From Ignavibacteriota bacterium (GTDB taxonomy: Bacteria; Bacteroidota; Ignavibacteria; Kapaibacteriales; UBA2268), in contig JAGXGG010000075.1 of NCBI GenBank assembly GCA_024636855.1, positions 24,165 through 88,164 on the forward strand: DNA of 64,000 nt, read 5' to 3'. Of the stretch, positions 3,400-47,289 are shown piece by piece (within the stretch, counting starts at the first letter, position 1; each line of letters opens with the position of its first letter). The notes below the pieces were generated by a model. It did no database searches. It was not told the DNA's origin and worked only from the letters and a program-made list of their open reading frames with translations. The position numbers were made by a program, and so were the translations under genes.

Positions 3400-4821
3400 A
3401 TGCAACAAAAACCTAATAAGCTAACTGAAGGATCGATACTTAAATCGCTAATCACTCTTGCCCTGCCAGTTATATTTGTCAATATATTACAGACAGCGTA
3501 TCAGCTAACAGATACTTTCTGGGTTGGCCGCTTGGGGACTGATGCAGTTGCCGCGGTTTCTATTAGTTTTCCTATTATCTTTTTTATTATTTCACTTGGT
3601 ATTGGGTTAGGAGTAGCTGGGACTATACTAGTTGCTCAGTATGCTGGTAAACAAGACCAAGCGACTGTTGATTATACTTCCTCTCAAACTTTTCTGATGG
3701 TAATAGTTGTATCAATAATTTTAGGGGCAATTGGTTATCTACTTTCCCCTTATATGACTATGGTAATGACTGATGACTCGAACGTAATCTACCCTGCCAT
3801 TTCTTACATGAGAATATCTTTCATAGGGTTAGTGTTTATGTTTACTTATATGATATTCCAATCATTGCTTCGGGGAGTAGGTAATGTAAGAACACCTATG
3901 TACATAGTGTTAGGTACTGTACTACTAAACTTAGTCTTAGACCCATTATTTATCTTTGGATACGGACCTATACCTGCCATGGGCGTCAAAGGGGCGGCGA
4001 TATCAACAATATTGACTCAAGCTATTGCATCTATTATTGGAATTGCTTTATTGTCTGGAGGTAAATACGGAATTAAGTTAAAATTAAGTCATTTCAAACC
4101 CGATTATCCTCTAATCTATAAAATGTTCAAGATTGGATTCCCTTCGTCTGTTGAGCAATCTACTCGAGCACTTGGATTAGCCGTTATGACATTGCTAGTG
4201 ACTACATTCGGCACACTTACGGTTGCTGCTTATGGTATTGGCACTTATGTGCTGATGTTTGTTATCATTCCAGCAATGGGTCTATCTATGGCGACTTCTA
4301 CATTAGTAGGACAGAACATAGGAGCAGGTAAAATAGAGCGTGCTGAGAGAATTGCTATATTAAGTACTAAATTGGCGTTCATAGCACTATCTATTGTGGG
4401 AATAATAATATTTATTTTTGCTAACCAAGTTGTAGCTTTCTTCATTCCAGGTGAAATAGAAACTATAAAGACTGGAGCTCTTTTTCTAAGAACAATGTCA
4501 TTAACCTTTGGGTTTGTAGGTGTACAGCTAACATTAAACGGAGTATTTATAGGTGCAGGTAATACGATGATATCCATGATTCTAGCTATTGTAAGTTTAT
4601 GGGTACTGAGATTCCCATTGGGTTATGTATTAGCTATGCACACCTCACTTGCGGAAGTCGGTATATGGATAGCATTCCCAATATCTAATATAGTAGCCGC
4701 ACTTGCTACATTGGTTTGGTTCAAAAAAGGGACTTGGAAAGAAAAGAAAATAACTGAAGAAATGAAACAGATAGAAGACACTAGAACTGAAACTATAATA
4801 GAAGAAGGTGGATTGGGGTAG
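3400..4821 (+). CDS. MATE family multidrug efflux transporter
   Basis: ~473 aa multi-TM; ITLALPVIFVNILQTAYQLTDTFWVGRLG, MATSTLVGQNIGAGK. Confidence 0.92.
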   Translation: MQQKPNKLTEGSILKSLITLALPVIFVNILQTAYQLTDTFWVGRLGTDAVAAVSISFPIIFFIISLGIGLGVAGTILVAQYAGKQDQATVDYTSSQTFLMVIVVSIILGAIGYLLSPYMTMVMTDDSNVIYPAISYMRISFIGLVFMFTYMIFQSLLRGVGNVRTPMYIVLGTVLLNLVLDPLFIFGYGPIPAMGVKGAAISTILTQAIASIIGIALLSGGKYGIKLKLSHFKPDYPLIYKMFKIGFPSSVEQSTRALGLAVMTLLVTTFGTLTVAAYGIGTYVLMFVIIPAMGLSMATSTLVGQNIGAGKIERAERIAILSTKLAFIALSIVGIIIFIFANQVVAFFIPGEIETIKTGALFLRTMSLTFGFVGVQLTLNGVFIGAGNTMISMILAIVSLWVLRFPLGYVLAMHTSLAEVGIWIAFPISNIVAALATLVWFKKGTWKEKKITEEMKQIEDTRTETIIEEGGLG

Positions 4822-5117: not shown

Positions 5118-6776
5118 ATGACTACTAAAAGAACAGTAACTGTACCAAGAGGTACCGAATTAACTTGTAAGAACTGGCAACTTGAAGCCGCGTACCGTAT
5201 GATACACCACAATCTAGACCCCGAGAATGCCGAGAAACCAGAAGAGCTAATCGTATATGGTGGGCTAGGAAAAGCTGCTAGAAATTGGGAAAGCTTCGAT
5301 GCTATTACCAATACCCTCAAGAATATGGACATAGATGAAACTCTTTTAGTTCAGTCAGGCAAGCCAGTTGGTGTTGCTAAGACTTATTCTGCTGCTCCTA
5401 GAGTAATAATAGCAAATTCGAACCTAGTTCCGAATTGGGCAAATTGGGAACATTTCCGTGAATTAGATAAAAAGGGTCTGATGATGTACGGTCAGATGAC
5501 AGCTGGTAGTTGGATATACATTGGTACGCAGGGAATAGTACAAGGGACTTATGAGACTTTCGCTGAGTGTGCTAGACAGCATTTTGGTGGTACATTAAAC
5601 GGTCGATTCCTATTGACAGGCGGTATGGGTGGAATGGGTGGTGCACAACCACTAGCCGCTAAATTCGCTGGCGCTGCTTCTATCACGGTCGAAATAGATG
5701 AAACAAGAATAGACAAGCGTATCCACGACGGATATTGCGATGTAAAGGTTGATAATCTGGACGATGCACTAAGAGTAATGAATGAAGCTAAAAATAACAA
5801 CGAAGCAAAGTCTATAGGGCTAATTGGGAATACAGCAGAAGTTCCTCCTGAACTTTTGAGACGTGGTATTGTTCCAGATATAGTGACAGACCAAACTTCG
5901 GCACATGACCCACTAAACGGTTACTATCCAGCTGGGTATAGCAAAGACGAAGCTGATAAGCTAAGAGCTGCTGACCCAGAGAAATATTTAGCAGAAGTTT
6001 ATAAATCCATAGCTACTCACGTAGAAACTATGGTTGAATTCCAGAAGAAAGGAGCCGTTGTGTTCGATTATGGAAATAATATACGTGGTATAGCTCAAGA
6101 CAATGGCGGCTATAAAGATGCTTTCGCATTCAAAGGATTCGTACCTGAATATATCCGTCCTCTATTCTGTGATGGTAAAGGGCCCTTCCGTTGGGTAGCC
6201 CTATCAGGTAATCCAGACGATATCGCAGTTACTGATGCTGCAATCAAAAATCTTTTCCCTGATAACGAACCGCTACATAGATGGATAGATAATGCTGCCG
6301 CTAATATCGGCTACCAAGCATTACCAGCAAGAATTTGTTGGCTTGGCTATGGCGAAAGAGCGCTAGCAGGACAGTTATTCAACGAGCTAGTAAGAACTGG
6401 CAAAGTCTCTGCTCCAATCGTAATAGGTCGTGACCATTTGGATTGCGGTTCAGTTGCTTCACCTTACAGAGAGACAGAGGGAATGCTAGATGGCTCTGAT
6501 GCAGTTTCTGATTGGGTGTTCCTAAACTTTGCACTGAACGCTATCGGTGGTGCTTCGTGGGTGTCTCTTCACCACGGTGGGGGAGTAGGTATGGGATTAT
6601 CACAACATGCAGGCATGGTAGTCGTCGCTGATGGTACAGATGAAGCAAAAGGCAGATTAGAAAGAGTTCTAACTTATGACCCACTAATGGGGATACTAAG
6701 ACACACAGATGCTGGCTACGAAAGAGCCGCAGACAATGCAAAGAAATTCGATATAAATATACCAATGGGTAAGTAA
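5118..6776 (+). CDS. hutU: Urocanate hydratase
   Basis: 552 aa; [67 protein letters not shown]. Confidence 0.97.
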
Positions 6777-6777
6777 A

Positions 6778-7386
6778 ATGAAAGCAATAGTAATAGGTGC
6801 CACAGGCACAATAGGAAAAGGAATAGTAGAGGAACTAGAAAGCAAGGGATACGAAGTTATCTCTGGTCACAGAAACTCAATAGTGAGCATAGACATAGAT
6901 AACCCCGAATCAGTTCACAATTTCTTCGAAAGTACAGAAATGGTAGATGCAATAATATGTGCAGCTGGTAGTGCAGCATTCGCTCCAGTGAGTGAACTAG
7001 ACGAAGAAAAAATCCAATCTAGTTTGAATAGCAAGTTCGCTGGTCAGCTAAGAGTAGCCAAATATGGTATGAAAAATCTACATAAGAATGGAGCAATCAT
7101 CTTGACTGGTGGTATGTTCGCTTATGCTCCTTGGCCATCAACTTCTATTATTTCAGCAGTGAACAAAGGACTAGAGGGATTTGCTCTAGGTGCGACTTTA
7201 GAAATGGAAGATGGGAAACGAATTATGGTGGCTCTTCCACCACTACTATCAGAGTCAGCTGAGAAAATGGGAATGCCTACAGACCCATGGCCAAACTCTA
7301 GCGAAGTAGCTAAATCATATTCCAAAGCATTGGAAAGTGGCAAAAGTGCCGACGTATTCTACGTAGATGGTTACGAACCAAAGTAG
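6778..7386 (+). CDS. SDR family short-chain dehydrogenase
   Basis: N-terminal Rossmann motif MKAIVIGATGTIGKGIVEEL; 1-bp gap after hutU, so likely co-transcribed. Confidence 0.85.
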   Translation: MKAIVIGATGTIGKGIVEELESKGYEVISGHRNSIVSIDIDNPESVHNFFESTEMVDAIICAAGSAAFAPVSELDEEKIQSSLNSKFAGQLRVAKYGMKNLHKNGAIILTGGMFAYAPWPSTSIISAVNKGLEGFALGATLEMEDGKRIMVALPPLLSESAEKMGMPTDPWPNSSEVAKSYSKALESGKSADVFYVDGYEPK

Positions 7387-7461: not shown

Positions 7462-7492
7462 AAGAGGATCTTGAAAAAGGTTCTCTTTTTTT
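7462..7492 (+). terminator. Putative terminator after SDR gene
   Basis: AAGAGGATCTT-GAAA-AAGGTTCTCTT followed by T7. Confidence 0.55.
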
Positions 7493-7590
7493 ATATATTA
7501 CATTTCGGGAAACACTATGGATTTATAATATCAAACTCATCACAATCATATTTTTAGCTTTTGCTATCCCTTTTAGTGGGTATGGGCAAG
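7470..7590 (+). repeat. Direct repeat D1 (left boundary of OMP array; includes signal-peptide block)
   Basis: 121 bp, about 10 mismatches to 11066-11186. Confidence 0.85.
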
Positions 7591-8207
7591 TTATTGATGA
7601 AGACCCTTTGACTAATTGTAGAGGACCATTACCTAATTATCTGCACTTTAACACAGGTGTTAATTATTCAAAACTTAATGGTAGTCAACTTAAAAATATA
7701 GACTTTAATCAAAGATATCAGGTCTCGTTTACTTATGAAGTTTATTTTGGAGACCAATATGTCGATCCTATAAATTCATTTGAATACGGGTTGAGTTATA
7801 ATCAAAACGGGTTTAAACACGAAAATGCAAATGGAAAAGTAGAAACAATAAATTATGAATACCTATCTATACCAATAACATACAACTATATTGTTTATAA
7901 TACATTTCCAAAAAGAGAACAAAATCGCTTTTTTGATCATATTCTATTGCTTCGTGGTGGAGCGTACTTAAGTTATTTAATGAATAGTAATGTTGATAAT
8001 AATAAAAATTCAATACCTACTTTAGATTATGGAATTAAATTTGGGCCTAGAATAGAATTTTTACCATTTTCATATTTCTTTTGCACTCTGGAATATAACT
8101 TATTCTTAGGTTTAGGTGATTTTAGCGGTGATTTTGAGAAGAGTAATAATATTTCTCATTCGATAGAACTTGGTGTTGGTATGTATTTTCGATTTTTTTA
8201 TTATTGA
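7530..8207 (+). CDS. Outer-membrane beta-barrel paralog 1 (no canonical start before signal peptide)
   Basis: Frame ATC AAA CTC ATC ACA ATC ATA TTT TTA GCT TTT GCT (IKLITIIFLAFAIPFSGYGQ) to TGA 8207; in-frame stop TAA at 7461-7463 and no ATG/GTG/TTG between; ORF track start at 7608 (TTG) would drop the signal peptide. Confidence 0.6.
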   Translation: MKLITIIFLAFAIPFSGYGQVIDEDPLTNCRGPLPNYLHFNTGVNYSKLNGSQLKNIDFNQRYQVSFTYEVYFGDQYVDPINSFEYGLSYNQNGFKHENANGKVETINYEYLSIPITYNYIVYNTFPKREQNRFFDHILLLRGGAYLSYLMNSNVDNNKNSIPTLDYGIKFGPRIEFLPFSYFFCTLEYNLFLGLGDFSGDFEKSNNISHSIELGVGMYFRFFYY

Positions 8208-8216
8208 GATAAATGA

Positions 8217-8858
8217 ATCAAACTACTCACATTCATATTGCTTGTTTTTGCTATTCCTTATAGTGGGTATGGGCAGGTGGGTGTGAACCCTCTAACATTT
8301 TATCCGACATCAAGACCTTTTTATCTTGGTCTAAATGGAGGATTGAATTATTCTAAAATCAATTACGATGACGCATCCACGGAATACCTCCCTTCAGTTC
8401 AGTTGGCAATCGAGTTTCAGTCATTTCTTTCTTCATATAAAAATGCAAGAAGTACATTACTGTATGGGGTGAGCTACGAATTAAAACAGTTTAGTATTCT
8501 GAACTCAAGTAATGAATCAATACAATTGGAATCAAGTTATTTATCATTCCCTATAAAATATCAATACTATTTTACTGATTTGCAAAAGAGTATTCCTGTT
8601 AGTGTAGTACTAGGGGGCTTTTATAGTTTTAAGCTTGATGAAAGTTCTATAGACAAAGATATTGAGTATTTACCAAATAGTAATTATGGTATTATTGTAG
8701 GTCCTAAAATAGAAATAATTTTAAATTATGGATTCTTTTTAAACCTTGATTATAACTTTCAATATGGTTTTGCATCGTTGAAAAATTCTATTTCGACTAC
8801 TAATAACATAAGTCATATAATAAACATCGGTTTCAAATTTCCATCAACAGTATTTTAA
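8217..8858 (+). CDS. Outer-membrane beta-barrel paralog 2 (no canonical start before signal peptide)
   Basis: IKLLTFILLVFAIPYSGYGQ block directly preceded by in-frame TGA (8214-8216); barrel-like C-term NISHIINIGFKFPSTVF. Confidence 0.6.
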   Translation: MKLLTFILLVFAIPYSGYGQVGVNPLTFYPTSRPFYLGLNGGLNYSKINYDDASTEYLPSVQLAIEFQSFLSSYKNARSTLLYGVSYELKQFSILNSSNESIQLESSYLSFPIKYQYYFTDLQKSIPVSVVLGGFYSFKLDESSIDKDIEYLPNSNYGIIVGPKIEIILNYGFFLNLDYNFQYGFASLKNSISTTNNISHIINIGFKFPSTVF

Positions 8859-8876
8859 ATTAAAAAAGCAACAAAT

Positions 8877-9533
8877 ATCAAACTACTTACAATCATATTG
8901 CTGGCTTTTGCTATTCCATTTAGTGGGTATGGGCAGTTGAGTGACTCTGAATTAAGTACTCGTTACTTTATGGATTACTTTACATTAAGTTCTGGGGTTA
9001 ATTTCGTAAATGTTACTCAAAATAGTAATGAAATATTTGGTAGTTATCGTGGCTTTCAGGCAAATTTGACTTATGAAAAATACATTGGCTCCAGTTACAC
9101 CAAACCGACAAACTCAATAGAGTTCGGAGTAAGCTACATTAGTAAAGAATTCGCTAGTAGTTATAATAATTCCCAAAACTCATTAAATGTGTATTACTTA
9201 TCTTTGCCGATAAACTATAATACGCGATTTTTATCTGTGTTTCTGATGAAAGTAGGAGGTTATGTGAGCTATAAGTTAAATAACCTAGATGGTTTTTACA
9301 GAAATTATTCTAGTGAAAATTTATTGACTTTGCCCGAACTCGATTATGGAATACACGTTGGTACTCGCCTAGAGCTAAATGAGATATCTAGTGAAGTCTC
9401 TATTCCTGTCTTTATAGAATATAATCTCCAATATGGCCTAGTTAGTATAGAAGAGATTTTACCAAACAGTTTTAATGGTACTCATACTATAAACCTTGGG
9501 GTAAAATTTCCAATAGTTGTATCTAAAAAGTAA
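8877..9533 (+). CDS. Outer-membrane beta-barrel paralog 3 (no canonical start before signal peptide)
   Basis: IKLLTIILLAFAIPFSGYGQ block; upstream in-frame stop is the paralog-2 TAA (8856-8858), no start codon between. Confidence 0.6.
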   Translation: MKLLTIILLAFAIPFSGYGQLSDSELSTRYFMDYFTLSSGVNFVNVTQNSNEIFGSYRGFQANLTYEKYIGSSYTKPTNSIEFGVSYISKEFASSYNNSQNSLNVYYLSLPINYNTRFLSVFLMKVGGYVSYKLNNLDGFYRNYSSENLLTLPELDYGIHVGTRLELNEISSEVSIPVFIEYNLQYGLVSIEEILPNSFNGTHTINLGVKFPIVVSKK

Positions 9534-10206
9534 TTATTACAGGTATATTATCAAACTAATCACAATCATATTACTAGCTTTTGCTATTCCATACAATGGG
9601 TATGGGCAAGGGGATCAAGATGACCCATCAGACCGTCCTCCAAGAGCCCAACCGTTTTTAATTGGCTTAAGTAGTGGTATAAACTATTCTAATATGATGT
9701 ATGAAAATACTTCAACTGAATTTATGTTTTCTGGAAAAATTTCATTGGATTTTGAATACCCAATGCTCTATATTAATGAATATCGCAGAGACTTCACTTT
9801 TTCCACTGGAATTAGTTTCGATAATAAAAACTTAAATATAAATGATGCAAACAATAACCAGAAACAGTCAAACATAACATTTCTAACAATTCCAATAAAA
9901 TATGAATTACTAATAGGTACAAATTATTCAGAAAATAAACTTAGAACCAGCATAGTGGTTGGTCCTTCATTTAGCTTTCTTATATCTAATCCCTTTAAAG
10001 TAATTAAAGAAAAACCACTATGGCTAAATGTAGGAATAATCTTAGGTCCTAAATTTGAATATGTTTTAAACCCTGAACTTTTTATGTTTATAGAGTATAA
10101 TTATCAAATTGGGCTAACTAAGCTCTATGATATTGAAGCATTAAATGCAATTAATAGCCATATTGTAAATATAGGATTCAAAATCCCTTCAACCGTTTTA
10201 TTTTAG
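9517..10206 (+). CDS. Outer-membrane beta-barrel paralog 4 (only copy with an in-frame TTG upstream)
   Basis: IIKLITIILLAFAIPYNGYGQ; possible TTG start at 9517 overlapping paralog 3; C-term SHIVNIGFKIPSTVLF. Confidence 0.65.
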   Translation: MYLKSNYYRYIIKLITIILLAFAIPYNGYGQGDQDDPSDRPPRAQPFLIGLSSGINYSNMMYENTSTEFMFSGKISLDFEYPMLYINEYRRDFTFSTGISFDNKNLNINDANNNQKQSNITFLTIPIKYELLIGTNYSENKLRTSIVVGPSFSFLISNPFKVIKEKPLWLNVGIILGPKFEYVLNPELFMFIEYNYQIGLTKLYDIEALNAINSHIVNIGFKIPSTVLF

Positions 10207-10222
10207 AGGCAGGATAAACAAT

Positions 10223-10854
10223 ATCAAATTCATCGCAATCATATTACTAGCTTTTGCTATCCCTTTTAGTGGGTATTCTTCAATGGGTCCTGGCCCTGCA
10301 CATCCTATCTGCATTGGCTTAAGTGGAGGTGTTAACTACTCAAATATAAGGAATGATATTTTTTCTTCGGAAAGCAATCCTTCTGAACAATTTTCATTAT
10401 ATTTCGAACATCGCTTAGGTAATATTAAGGCGAAGTCAAGATTGGGATCGGTTGCTTTTGGGATAGGTTTTAATAATAGAACAATGAACTTAACGGATTC
10501 AAATAATATAGAATATAAATCAAGTCTAAATTACATAACAATCCCAGCAATGTATCAATTCCCGTTTTTTGGTTTAGATAAAGAAAACAAGTTTAGTGCC
10601 TATTTTTTTTTGGTTTTTCATTAAATCTTTACGTTTCTCAATCTAATAATCGAGTTGTAAAGAATCCTCATTGGCTATATGTTGGAGTTTTAATTGGACC
10701 TAAAATTGAATATGAAATAACTTCTAATCTGTCAATATTTATGGATTATAATTATGAGTTTGGAATAACAGATATTCAGGATATAGATAAAATAAGTAGG
10801 AGTACAATGCACTTAATCAACATAGGTTTCAAAGTACCTACAACCATATTTTAA
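10223..10854 (+). pseudogene. Outer-membrane beta-barrel paralog 5, frameshifted at a T9 homopolymer
   Basis: IKFIAIILLAFAIPFSGY; ORF stops at 10624 just after TATTTTTTTTTGG; the shifted frame continues GFSLNLYVSQSNN...WLYVGVLIGPKIEYEI...LINIGFKVPTTIF to 10854, matching paralog 4. Confidence 0.75.
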
Positions 10855-10867
10855 AGAAAATTATACC

Positions 10868-11027
10868 GCTCCTCTGGAGCTTATTTGTCTTTTTTCAATT
10901 CGAATGCTACAGATATTAAGCCCCTCTGGGGCTGTAATGGATTATTGAATTATACTAAACTAACCACGTAGTGGCTAAATATCTGTAGTAAAAAGTCAAC
11001 CCACAATACCAATCAGCCCCGTAGGGG
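10868..11027. repeat. REP-like palindrome cluster 1
   Basis: GCTCCTCTGGAGC (10868), GCCCCTCTGGGGC (10920), CCACGTAGTGG (10964), CCCCGTAGGGG (11017); flanking CTACAGATAT / ATATCTGTAG arms. Confidence 0.85.
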
Positions 11028-11065
11028 TTGAATATAAAGTATTGTAACATTAGATATTTAATAGT

Positions 11066-11186
11066 CTTGAAAAAGGTTCTCTTTTTATATATATTACATT
11101 TTGGGAATCACTTTGGATTTATAATATCAAACTCATCACAATCATATTACTAGCTTTTGCTATTTCTTTTAGTGGATATGGGCAGG
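11066..11186 (+). repeat. Direct repeat D2: orphan signal-peptide remnant (sixth array unit)
   Basis: Near-identical to 7470-7590; encodes IKLITIILLAFAISFSGYGQG then TAA. Confidence 0.85.
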
Positions 11187-11205
11187 GGTAAGATAAACCA
11201 TTTGA

Positions 11206-12627
11206 TTATTTAGAATTTGCGAGCTTTTTAATTAGTCCATTGAATATAAATCCGTGGAATGGGAATACCGAAAACCAATATAGCCTACCAGCTAGTCCTA
11301 AGGGTCTGAAAGTAGCCGTTTGTATTATATATCCATCTTCTACTTTGAATTCTAACCATGCATCCCCAGGTAATTTCATCTCAGCAAAAAGTAATAACCG
11401 ACCTTCTTCTTTATCAGCATATAGCACTCGCCAAAAATCCAAAGCATCGCCTGTTGATATTGTTAACTTATTTGTTCGACCTCTCCTGAGTCCTACTCCA
11501 CCAACGAATTTGTCTAATATACCACGAATTTTCCATAGCCAATTACCATAGTACCAACCGGTTTCACCACCAATTTTCCATATATTATTTATACAGGTAT
11601 CTCTGTCTGCAATTTTTCTAGTTCGTTTATCTTTGAATGAGCCAAATTCAGGTACTTTTACAAATTCACTTATGTTGAAATTGATACCACTGCTAGAGTA
11701 TGAATCTTTCCAACTTGAATAGATATTATTGTCTTCAATTCTTTTAAATGCCTTACCGATAGCTTCTTTGAATGAGATGGGCTCTACACCTAATATTCTA
11801 TTTATATCATGGTTACGGCATATTACTTCTACTTTCATGCTATTGACTAATGAACGAGCTAGTCGATATGAAGTAGACGTAACAAAATACAACCAATAAG
11901 ATGACAATTTCGGTGTCATTAGCGGTACTGTAAATATTTTCCGTTTCAAGTTCCTTGCTTCGGCAAATTGGAGTAGCATTTCTTTGTAAGTCAGAATATC
12001 ATAGCACCCAATATCAAAATTCTTATCATAAGTTTCTTCTTTCAAAATTGATTTCGTAAGAAATGTTAGTACATCAGATATACCTATTGGTTGACATCTA
12101 GTTGAAAGCCATTTCGGTGCTATCATAACGGGTAATTTTTCTACTAGATCTCTTATTATCTCAAATGAAGCGCTACCAGAACCCACTATAATACCTGCTC
12201 TCAGGCATGTAAAGTGATATGTTCCTTTGCCTAGTTCTTCTTCTACTTTTTTTCTAGATTCTAAATGTTTGGAGAGTTTGGACTCATTGATAATACCGCT
12301 TAGGTATATCACCTGCTGAGCATTAGTATTAGAAATTCTCTTTCTGAAATTAATTGCAGATTGCTGTTCTAATTCTGTGTAATCATCAGACGAGGACATA
12401 GAATGAACCAAATAATATGCTACATCTATGTCATCAGGTATATTTGACAAACTATCTTCTTTGAGTAAATCAATTTCTACTATCGAGATATTGGGAGCTA
12501 AAGAATTAGCATAGTTGAACCTTGTTTTGTCTCTGACACAGCAAACAACGTGATGCCCTTCCTCAACGAGTAGTGGTAACAATCTTTTACCTATATAACC
12601 TGTAGCACCAGTAAGAAGAATTTTCAT
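11206..12627 (-). CDS. NAD(P)-binding SDR/NmrA-like oxidoreductase with C-terminal DUF2867-like domain
   Basis: MKILLTGATGYIGKRLLPLLVEEGHHVVCCVRD N-term; C-term WLEFKVEDGYIIQTATFRPLGLAGRLYWFSVFPFHGFIF. Confidence 0.85.
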   Translation of the reverse strand: MKILLTGATGYIGKRLLPLLVEEGHHVVCCVRDKTRFNYANSLAPNISIVEIDLLKEDSLSNIPDDIDVAYYLVHSMSSSDDYTELEQQSAINFRKRISNTNAQQVIYLSGIINESKLSKHLESRKKVEEELGKGTYHFTCLRAGIIVGSGSASFEIIRDLVEKLPVMIAPKWLSTRCQPIGISDVLTFLTKSILKEETYDKNFDIGCYDILTYKEMLLQFAEARNLKRKIFTVPLMTPKLSSYWLYFVTSTSYRLARSLVNSMKVEVICRNHDINRILGVEPISFKEAIGKAFKRIEDNNIYSSWKDSYSSSGINFNISEFVKVPEFGSFKDKRTRKIADRDTCINNIWKIGGETGWYYGNWLWKIRGILDKFVGGVGLRRGRTNKLTISTGDALDFWRVLYADKEEGRLLLFAEMKLPGDAWLEFKVEDGYIIQTATFRPLGLAGRLYWFSVFPFHGFIFNGLIKKLANSK

Positions 12628-12690: not shown

Positions 12691-12911
12691 AGCCAATTCG
12701 TGGCTTATATGGAATTAATCCGCCTTCTAACTCCGCTCAGGCATCATAATTCTGACCTAGCGGGGCAGTGTTTGTTTTGTAGCATCCCATTTCAACAGAT
12801 ATTATGCTCCGATGGTGCCGCAATTCTGTATTGAATTATCCTAAATTAGCCACGTAGTGGTGATATATCTGTAGCTAAATGAATAGATAAAAATCAATTG
12901 CCCCGTAGGGG
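12691..12911. repeat. REP-like palindrome cluster 2 (left of RAYT)
   Basis: AGCCAATTCGTGGCT (12691), CCACGTAGTGG (12850), CCCCGTAGGGG (12901); ACAGATATTA...ATATCTGTAG composite ~12795-12876. Confidence 0.85.
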
Positions 12912-12957
12912 TAATATATTTATTTCCAGAATAATTGATTTTTTATTAATTTTATAA

Positions 12958-13407
12958 ATGCCTAATACATATCATCAAATATATTTGCACATTGTTTTCT
13001 CTACTCTAAATAGGGAAAGGACTATTCGTGACCCATTGAAAACAGAACTTTTGAAATACATTAATAAAATTATTCAAAACAATGAATCAAAACCAATTTG
13101 TTTGAATGCTCACATTGATCATGTACATTTATTAATTGGGATGAACCCATCAATAAAGATTAGTGATTTAATTCGTGATATCAAATCAAGTAGTTCAAAG
13201 TGGATAAATGAAAACCGAAAACTAAACGACAAGTTTAGTTGGCAATCTGGCTACGGTTGTTTCTCTGTGTCGAAATCAAGTTTACAGTCGGTTATCAGAT
13301 ATATAGATAACCAAGAGGAACACCATAAAGTAAAATCCTTCAAAGATGAATATCTTGAGTTATTAAAGAAACACGGTGTTGAATTTAATATCGATTATGT
13401 CTTTTAG
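12958..13407 (+). mobile_element. RAYT-like IS200/IS605-type Y1 (HUH) transposase
   Basis: 149 aa; YHQIYLHIVFSTLNRERTI, HIDHVHLLIG (HUH-like), IRDIKSSSSKWINE, candidate catalytic Tyr in VIRYIDNQEEHHK; bracketed by REP-like palindromes. Confidence 0.88.
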
Positions 13408-13414
13408 TATTCCA

Positions 13415-13662
13415 CCCCTACGGGGCGGATTGGGTTGTTAGCTAGTCAATGGGGCTACAGGTATTGAGCCACTACGTGGCTAATAAAGTATCACAAACAA
13501 AATTGAATTCAAAAACCGTTTTCCAAATATCAATCGTAAATGCCCCAGAGGGGCAGTATATCTGTAGCAACCAAGTTTGAAAAAGTTAGAAAAAGCCACG
13601 TAGTGGCGATATATCTGTAGCCAATGTGGCTACCACCCACACACCACCAGCCCCGTAGGGGC
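13415..13662. repeat. REP-like palindrome cluster 3 (right of RAYT)
   Basis: CCCCTACGGGG (13415), AGCCACTACGTGGCT (13467), TGCCCCAGAGGGGCA (13541), GCCACGTAGTGGC (13595), GCCCCGTAGGGGC (13650). Confidence 0.85.
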
Positions 13663-13694
13663 GGTATACCTTTAAGTTATTAATTTTCTTTCAA

Positions 13695-45312: not shown

Positions 45313-47289
45313 TTATTTTTCTTTTCTAGTATTTGATACTAATATTAAATCTCTGAGTTCATCTATTTGTTTTTGCAAATCATTTATTTTTGTTTTTTGG
45401 CTTTCTAATTCTAATAAATACTCTTCGTTCAACCAAGTCTTTTCTTCTAGCTGTTTATTTAACTCTTGCACAGATTTTACCAATGGAACTACAAACTCTG
45501 CATAACGTAATCCGTAGAAATCTTTTTCATTCTTCGGGGCGTCTACACCACTAAAGTCGAATCCGTTGGCTTTGGCTGCTTGTTCCACTTCCTGCGCTAT
45601 AAATCCAGTATATGTAATATTCTCCTTGTCATATTTGGTGTCCCATTTTGAGCTATCAATTATACCAAAGTTATCAGTATAGAACTGTTCAATTTTACGC
45701 AAATCCATAGTGTATGTGACTGGACGTAGTTGATTAATGAACTGAAGACCTTTTACATTTTCCACTACATTTACCTTAAACCTACTATCGCTAATAGTGG
45801 TCCAGTTAACTGCACCGCCTATGCTTGTTATATTCTCATTTCCAACACGCACCATGTCCGATGCAGTAGATAATGACTTATGACCTAAACTCATAGAATT
45901 AGTGAAGTTTGAATCGGCATTGTCAGATAAGTATCCTATTGTCGTATTAAATTCGCCACTAACATTTGATTTAAGAGAAAGTGTTCCTATTGAGACATTA
46001 TTACTACCATTAACATTACTTCTTAGAGCTAAATAACCAACAGCTGTATTTGCATTTCCTGTTGTATTATCAATCATTGCCGTAGCCCCAAGGGCACTGT
46101 TATAATGACCACTTGAGTTAGAGCTTAACGAGTTAGCCCCAATAACTGTATTCGAGAGCCCTGTAGTATTGTAGTATAATGAACTATTCCCAACGGCAGT
46201 ATTATATGCACCAGTTGTATTCTTATTCATTGATTCAGCTCCACATGCAGTATTACCATCACCAGTAATATTGGAATAGAGTGCCCCCGACCCTATAGCA
46301 CTGTTTCTTGCTCCTTCAGTATTAGAATAAAGTGATTGATAACCAACAGCAGAATTTCTGCCACCTTTAGTATTTGAATAAAGTGAGCTGCTACCTATAG
46401 CACAATTACCACTACCTTGGCTATTATTGTAAAGAGCTTGGAAACCGTTAGCCACATTATAGAAACCATAATCATTACTAAATATAGCTTCGTATCCTAT
46501 TGCAGTGTTATTTGAGCCAGTATTGTTTAAATAAAGTGATTTAGTTCCTATAGAAACGTTGTTTCCTCCAGAAGTGTTATTATACAACGATTGTAAACCA
46601 ACAGCTATATTAAAATTACCATTGTTAATACGAAATAAACTTGAATCACCAATAGCTATATTTCCTTCTCCATTATAGATAGTTCTTCCCGTTTGTTTAC
46701 CAATTAAGATATTATTATTCTTATTGCTAGACTCTAACCTTTTGCTTGTCATTGTCCATTTCTCTTCACCGTCAAGTGTAAATCTTATAATGTTTTCATT
46801 ATTATTCTTTTCTACTTCAACTCTAGTGTTACCGTCTTTGTCTATGATTCTATCAGTAGGACTACCATCGCCACCACCAGCTATCCTATCTGCTGTGGAA
46901 GCATGTAGAGCATAAGGAACACTTATTAACTGCGTTGTGCTTATGATTGTATAATCTGATTTTCCATTTGGATCAATTTCAGTTTTAATAAAGTACTCTC
47001 CTTTTGACCAATCTATAGATTCAATATCACCTTCTGGGAAAGTAGAAGCACCAATTTGTAAAGAGATTAATCCATTGTCATTAGTTATCGGGTAACTGGT
47101 CTCGCTATAAACCACGTCCCCAGTTACTGAATCGCTTAGAATACTTATTTTAACACTTACAGATTTATTTGAGATCAACTCATTGTTTGCATCTCTGACT
47201 ACCGCCTGATAACTAAACTTGTATGGTGTTTGAGAGTTGATAATTGTAGTAGTTAATAATATTAATAATATTGTAATTATCTTTTTCAT
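45313..47289 (-). CDS. Tail-fibre-like protein with C-terminal S74 (endosialidase chaperone) domain
   Basis: About 14-15 repeats of 17 aa (N-x-A-[IV]-G-x-x-[SA]-L-Y-x-N-x-x-G-x-x); SDSRFKVNVVENVKGLQFINQLRPVTYTMD...YTGFIAQEVEQAA. Confidence 0.9.
   Translation of the reverse strand: MKKIITILLILLTTTIINSQTPYKFSYQAVVRDANNELISNKSVSVKISILSDSVTGDVVYSETSYPITNDNGLISLQIGASTFPEGDIESIDWSKGEYFIKTEIDPNGKSDYTIISTTQLISVPYALHASTADRIAGGGDGSPTDRIIDKDGNTRVEVEKNNNENIIRFTLDGEEKWTMTSKRLESSNKNNNILIGKQTGRTIYNGEGNIAIGDSSLFRINNGNFNIAVGLQSLYNNTSGGNNVSIGTKSLYLNNTGSNNTAIGYEAIFSNDYGFYNVANGFQALYNNSQGSGNCAIGSSSLYSNTKGGRNSAVGYQSLYSNTEGARNSAIGSGALYSNITGDGNTACGAESMNKNTTGAYNTAVGNSSLYYNTTGLSNTVIGANSLSSNSSGHYNSALGATAMIDNTTGNANTAVGYLALRSNVNGSNNVSIGTLSLKSNVSGEFNTTIGYLSDNADSNFTNSMSLGHKSLSTASDMVRVGNENITSIGGAVNWTTISDSRFKVNVVENVKGLQFINQLRPVTYTMDLRKIEQFYTDNFGIIDSSKWDTKYDKENITYTGFIAQEVEQAAKANGFDFSGVDAPKNEKDFYGLRYAEFVVPLVKSVQELNKQLEEKTWLNEEYLLELESQKTKINDLQKQIDELRDLILVSNTRKEK

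Follow-up and report, generated by a model that had tools for sequence, protein, structure and literature searches.

Layout of the array and its protein family

The window studied here comprises 64,000 nucleotides from the 3.1-Mb draft genome of an uncultured Ignavibacteriota bacterium (G000; contig JAGXGG010000075.1). It harbors an array of outer-membrane protein genes, all on the forward strand, in which each copy opens with ATC where a start codon would be expected; the array is flanked by urocanase and SDR genes (5118-7386) on one side and a reverse-strand gene (11206-12627) on the other. The array is found at the same locus, downstream of the SDR gene, in two further genomes, with four copies in G001 and two in G003. 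Copies are labeled W1-W6 in the window (copies 1-6), A1-A4 in G001 and B1-B2 in G003; the three genomes are drafts of 96-100% completeness, each representing one species.

Five tandem copies start at 7530, 8217, 8877, 9550 and 10223, each with a 60-nt signal-peptide block that encodes IKLITIILLAFAIPFSGYGQ or a close variant. The block is ~73-90% identical in pairwise comparisons among these five copies, and the bodies behind it share a mutual protein identity of only ~20-35%. The preliminary description of the locus had recognized five tandem open reading frames (ORFs) with a shared block; copies and block stand, but copy 5 is frameshifted and a sixth block exists at 11126. The separation given there as about 10-25 bp is corrected to stop-to-next-ATC gaps of 9, 18, 16 and 16 bp. 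Copy 1 (7530-8207) encodes an intact outer-membrane beta-barrel protein with an inferred ATC start. Copy 2 (8217-8858) and copy 4 (9550-10206) match the Pfam family OMP_b-brl_2 (PF13568) with 40.7 and 36.4 bits, respectively, at a cut-off of 27, while copies 1, 3 (8877-9533) and 5 are not recognized by Pfam but align with copies 2 and 4 as one family. In copy 5 (10223-10854) the frame is lost at a run of nine T (10603-10611) and resumes to a TAA at 10852-10854, so the intact set in the window amounts to four copies. Its nearest relative, A4 (locus L026 of G001, 4001-4675), is likewise a broken last copy, with a different lesion, an in-frame TGA in place of the T-run frameshift. Copy 6 (11126-11191) has a full leader of its own, yet its signal block, which begins with ATC AAA, runs into a TAA after 21 codons and is followed by no body.

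For copy 3, structure prediction gives a helix at residues 2-12 followed by eight strands (mean predicted local distance difference test score 71), which we interpret with medium confidence as an eight-stranded barrel with an N-terminal signal peptide. The best PDB matches of the model include Ail, OmpX and OmpA, which resemble it in the eight-stranded fold, although the identity to solved structures is only ~12-16%. Jointly with the AUC-start explanation developed below, we consider it likely that the array is a tandem family of secreted, eight-stranded outer-membrane barrel proteins.

The first copy is preceded by leader A (7471-7529), which consists of a promoter-like TTGAAA (7471-7476), 17 nt, TATATT (7494-7499) and a short 5' untranslated region (UTR), and which partly coincides with the hairpin terminator of the preceding SDR gene (7462-7487), on the hairpin's 3' side. 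Leader B (11067-11125), ahead of copy 6, combines the promoter-like arrangement TTGAAA-17-TATATT (11067-11095) with a 5' UTR and is homologous to the A3 leader of G001. This arrangement is kept, near-identically, in the leaders of W1, W6, A1, A3 and B1. A TATAAT promoter just before the ATC, seen in some leaders, was rejected as a candidate: no fitting hexamer lies 16-18 nt upstream, and the intergenic copies have no TATAAT.

The start region

Traced back to the upstream stop, the frames of copies 1, 2, 3 and 5 contain no ATG, GTG or TTG, and the sole in-frame candidate of copy 4 is a remote TTG at 9517, within the end of copy 3. ATG codons are present out of frame in copies 1 and 2, at 7517 and 8213. 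In all these respects the preliminary description was accurate. In copy 2, a TGA directly abuts ATC AAA, which makes ATC the first codon readable there and, consequently, the only possible start common to all copies. Conservation sets in sharply at this ATC, although the leader and intergenic contexts before it differ.

The ATG of leader A lies outside the block and opens an out-of-frame mini-ORF, ATG GAT TTA TAA (7517-7528), the stop of which is located 1 nt before the ATC. The variants are ATG GAA TTA TAA in G001 and TTG GAT TTA TAA in leader B (11113-11124), where the ATG is replaced by TTG; a start-type codon is thus retained even before copy 6, and ATG/TTG GAW TTA TAA occurs in all five leaders. 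The mini-ORF may reflect a side effect of the GGA motif, or it may serve re-initiation at AUC. Its conservation would also suit translation that begins upstream, either at the leader ATG with a frame shift (ATG GAW TTA TAA N ATC) or at an upstream AUU or AUA, and some copies do have an in-frame ATT or ATA upstream. However, copies 3, 4, 5, A2, A4 and B2 have no mini-ORF, the W2 stop directly precedes the ATC, and the leader copies of G001 contain no AUU or AUA in the 5' UTR frame. In our judgement, TTA TAA is also a poor slippery site. An upstream start is therefore improbable.

Across the three species, ATC AAA begins 12 of 12 blocks; ATG begins none of them (0/12), and AUU or AUA never occurs. 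A family-wide search of 55 genomes confines the array to one genus, with distant homologues in the sister genus g4 (G006), and these begin with ATG AAA at the aligned position. Direct non-AUG initiation had been named in the preliminary description as the alternative to its own proposal; with 12 of 12 ATC and a sister-genus ATG at that very codon, initiation at AUC fits best.

A Shine-Dalgarno (SD)-like triplet (AGG, GGA or GAG) is present within positions -15 to -5 of the ATC in 11 of the 12 copies, 6-8 nt upstream and mostly as GGA at -11 to -9, copy 3 being the one without; in leader A, GGA (7519-7521) stands 8 nt ahead of the first ATC. Among 94 unambiguous ATG starts of the same genome, 39% have such a triplet at -15 to -5 versus 11% in a control stretch. 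Second codons of the source genome are most often AAA, the codon that also follows the ATC of the blocks.

Start-codon usage in the source genome was assessed in a 423-kb sample with 318 genes taken by coding score. The other strong start-less ORFs inspected in this sample are few and resemble frameshifts or a broken gene, and infC of the genus has an apparent ATG start. The AUC start is thus a trait of the outer-membrane protein family and not of the whole genome. Every copy uses AUC and never AUU or AUA, which could also point to a dedicated decoding change, for instance an additional initiator tRNA whose anticodon is GAU or genus-wide relaxed initiation fidelity. Yet the initiator-type tRNAs found carry the CAU anticodon only and the 318-gene sample, like infC, gives no sign of general non-AUG start use, so that we regard such a change as extremely unlikely. 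The start-less ORFs of the sample, at L085 15246, L092 16020 (reverse strand), L082 7568 (reverse strand) and L094 15183, have the appearance of frameshifted genes (CorA-like, response regulator) or of a disrupted serine recombinase gene, and are possible assembly errors.

Selection on the bodies and exchange of modules

A dN/dS comparison of the bodies (nonsynonymous over synonymous substitution rate), suggested in the preliminary description, yields 0.15-0.34 for ortholog pairs: 0.15 (0.09-0.23) for W3-A3, which are 79% identical in amino acids, 0.21 (0.11-0.37) for W2-A1 and 0.34 (0.20-0.61) for W4-A2, where the brackets give bootstrap ranges with upper limits of 0.61 or less. In simulated neutral drift of equal extent, only 0.35% (W4) and 0% (W3) of the runs were left without a stop codon. 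On these estimates, the orthologous bodies are under purifying selection between species. This bears on the possibility of a dying family, in which a single ancestral loss of the ATG was propagated as the block was duplicated and gene-converted, leaving copies that no longer function. Block conversion could have spread a defective start, neither copy 5 nor A4 is intact, and copy 6 lacks a body. However, 9 of the 11 bodies are intact though most are only 20-35% mutually identical, dN/dS between orthologs stays far under 1, and stops would be expected after neutral drift. We consider a dying family unlikely, albeit somewhat less so than an upstream start.

The signal-peptide block has a history different from that of the bodies. 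Across 51 pairs of paralogues, dS has a median of 0.45 in the block versus 1.92 in the body, while in two close ortholog pairs the block and body values agree (0.74/0.78 and 0.24/0.26); since the block holds only 20 codons, single dS values are rough. The low block dS among paralogues, but not among orthologs, indicates that the block is shared by exchange and not kept by synonymous constraint.

The bodies have moved as well. In G001, relatives of copies 2 and 4 stand behind leader A and relatives of copies 3 and 5 behind leader B, whereas in the window leader A precedes all of the bodies and leader B has none. Bodies have thus changed leader between species. In addition, the body of W4 is 81% identical in amino acids to that of A2, and the dS of this pair is 0.26 compared to 0.73-0.98 for neighboring core genes. 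Similarity between both copies drops in the signal block and at a C-terminal GFKFPST block. The W4/A2 body was apparently exchanged between species via these end blocks, with breakpoints near them. Homologous recombination would be the mechanism of exchange. Of the recombination envisaged in the preliminary description, the homogenized blocks and the reshuffling of bodies between leaders, in one case apparently between species, are retained, but the switching of an expression site is not.

Indeed, that description had interpreted the copies as silent donor cassettes, untranslated in place, that supply bodies by recombination to an ATG-bearing expression site at another place in the genome. Shared and homogenized blocks and highly diverged bodies that moved between leaders, and probably between species, are in line with this proposal; selection on the bodies alone is compatible with silent storage, and an expression site could sit in unassembled repeats of the draft genomes. 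The proposed genome search for a block with an in-frame ATG retrieved none in the three genomes. With the rest of the block as query, only the 12 known blocks were found in these drafts, none elsewhere and none with ATG, and all 12 are at one locus. A 23-nt core of the block occurs six times in the 3.1-Mb genome, each time (6/6) at the array, and a search with the start region GGATAAAYNATATCAAAM for further genes added two places in G003, neither of which is the start of a long ORF. A scan of genome contigs with the five-copy alignment had the G003 record PGYR01000048.1 (HGW-Ignavibacteriae-4) as its sole match. Furthermore, promoter-like leaders are conserved before the first copies, the copies taken to be silent likewise have SD-like triplets at the distance expected of a start codon, and both the purifying selection and the sister-genus ATG at the same codon oppose the proposal. 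Silent cassettes are consequently very unlikely, on a par with or slightly below an upstream start.

Probable initiation at AUC, its parallels and the surroundings of the array

The best explanation, which we regard as probable on the sequence evidence assembled here, is initiation at AUC with the ordinary initiator tRNA, assisted by an SD-like triplet and by coupling, with low output and with block-mediated exchange of bodies. The ordinary formylmethionyl-tRNA would base-pair with the first two positions of AUC and be mismatched at the third, and the SD-like triplet 6-8 nt upstream would position the ribosome. Upstream stops located 1-26 nt away suggest coupling by re-initiation: downstream members are probably aided by ribosomes that have terminated immediately beforehand on the preceding gene, 9-26 nt upstream. 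Re-initiation in E. coli proceeds with the initiator tRNA, and an excess of initiation factor 3 (IF3) reduces it (PMC2268962). IF3 disfavors weak third-base pairing (PMC10158994) and AUC is weak where tested, so a low and uniform output of surface proteins would be expected. The signal-peptide block would double as the shared homology through which bodies are exchanged.

Several observations weigh against AUC initiation or limit the case for it. At its third base, the ATC shows no greater conservation than Ile codons 6 and 7 of the block, so that its invariance alone does not single out a start. The 12 contexts are not independent: they fall into a single class of leader and perhaps two to four classes of intergenic sequence. 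Promoter matches by chance are common in this AT-rich region (16 found versus 24 expected in shuffles), and the leader evidence therefore rests on conservation. Each of the two multi-copy genomes has a lesion in its last copy (W5, A4), which implies that some decay is under way at this position. The lack of a GAU anticodon among the initiator tRNAs recovered speaks for the ordinary initiator tRNA, but the recovered tRNA sets are incomplete, Ile-GAU and Ala being not found. Finally, AUC is a poor start in mycobacteria, where it accounted for 0.2% of the start codons that survived a selection, a share that is low but above background (PMC4633059).

AUC initiation invites a further, more tentative idea, which we consider possible but doubtful, namely that the surface repertoire is under one translational gate, with AUC start and signal peptide exchanged together and a low output tied to the IF3 level or to translation of the preceding gene. 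If so, any body recombined behind the block would fall under the same control.

In the pilS/pilE genes of Neisseria, diverged bodies with homologous ends in common are moved by recombination. The same organization is known from msp2/p44 of Anaplasma (PMC11946796). The array is similar to both in its shared end homology and its diverged, recombining bodies, yet it differs from silent-cassette systems in that no ATG expression site was found and its copies carry promoter-like leaders and SD-like triplets. Because an expression site was looked for and not found, we do not class the array as a silent-cassette system; its mode of working would be that of a gene whose non-AUG start is conserved.

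Another family, P28/OMP-1 of Ehrlichia, has its genes arranged in tandem. To our knowledge, these genes have ordinary starts and their own regulation and, unlike the array, no shared start-less signal block. P28/OMP-1 is a multigene family of differentially expressed outer-membrane proteins (PMC7971322). With respect to the start codon, the closest parallels are found in Streptomyces, where infC starts with ATC and AUC starts are thus already known (PMC5472188). infC, encoding IF3, which has AUU in E. coli and ATC in Streptomyces, is similar to the array in having an AUN start, against which IF3 discriminates. However, infC is a single autoregulated gene, whereas the array is a multi-copy secreted family with no known IF3 link. 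Streptomyces sigR keeps a GTC start in 32 of 34 genomes; its ribosome-binding site is good, and its repression depends on IF3 (PMC5472188). Its non-standard start is kept across species, as in the array, but it concerns another codon in one gene and is experimentally proven, while the array start is inferred from sequence alone.

A whole recombining surface-protein family with an AUC start was not found in the literature searched. If true, the array would add one of few natural AUC starts and, among that literature, the first whole multi-copy secreted family keeping AUC. Since gene finders accept only ATG, GTG and TTG, such a family is missed or annotated in truncated form; the array copies are annotated as TTG ORFs without the full signal peptide. 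The array offers 12 natural start regions for the study of bacterial AUC initiation and illustrates how surface-protein bodies that have a signal-peptide block in common appear to pass from one species to another.

Between copy 5 and leader B lies a palindromic element (10855-11060, forward strand) resembling repetitive extragenic palindromes (REPs). A 46-nt intergenic stretch was considered as a regulatory RNA and dropped, as related palindromes flank the nearby gene for an IS200-type transposase (PF01797, similar to REP-associated tyrosine transposases; 12958-13407), at 12771-12919, 13408-13491 and 13542-13668. Further REP-like elements related to 10855-11060 are scattered through the genome sample. 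In G002, a member of the same genus without the array, nothing separates the terminator T-run of the SDR gene from a REP-like element (C70 29280-29885, L104/L100), which suggests either clean loss or late insertion of the array. Elsewhere in the window, among short reverse-strand genes, a 658-aa protein (45313-47289, reverse strand) carries a Peptidase_S74 (endosialidase chaperone) domain, which occurs in phage tail fibers and some surface proteins.

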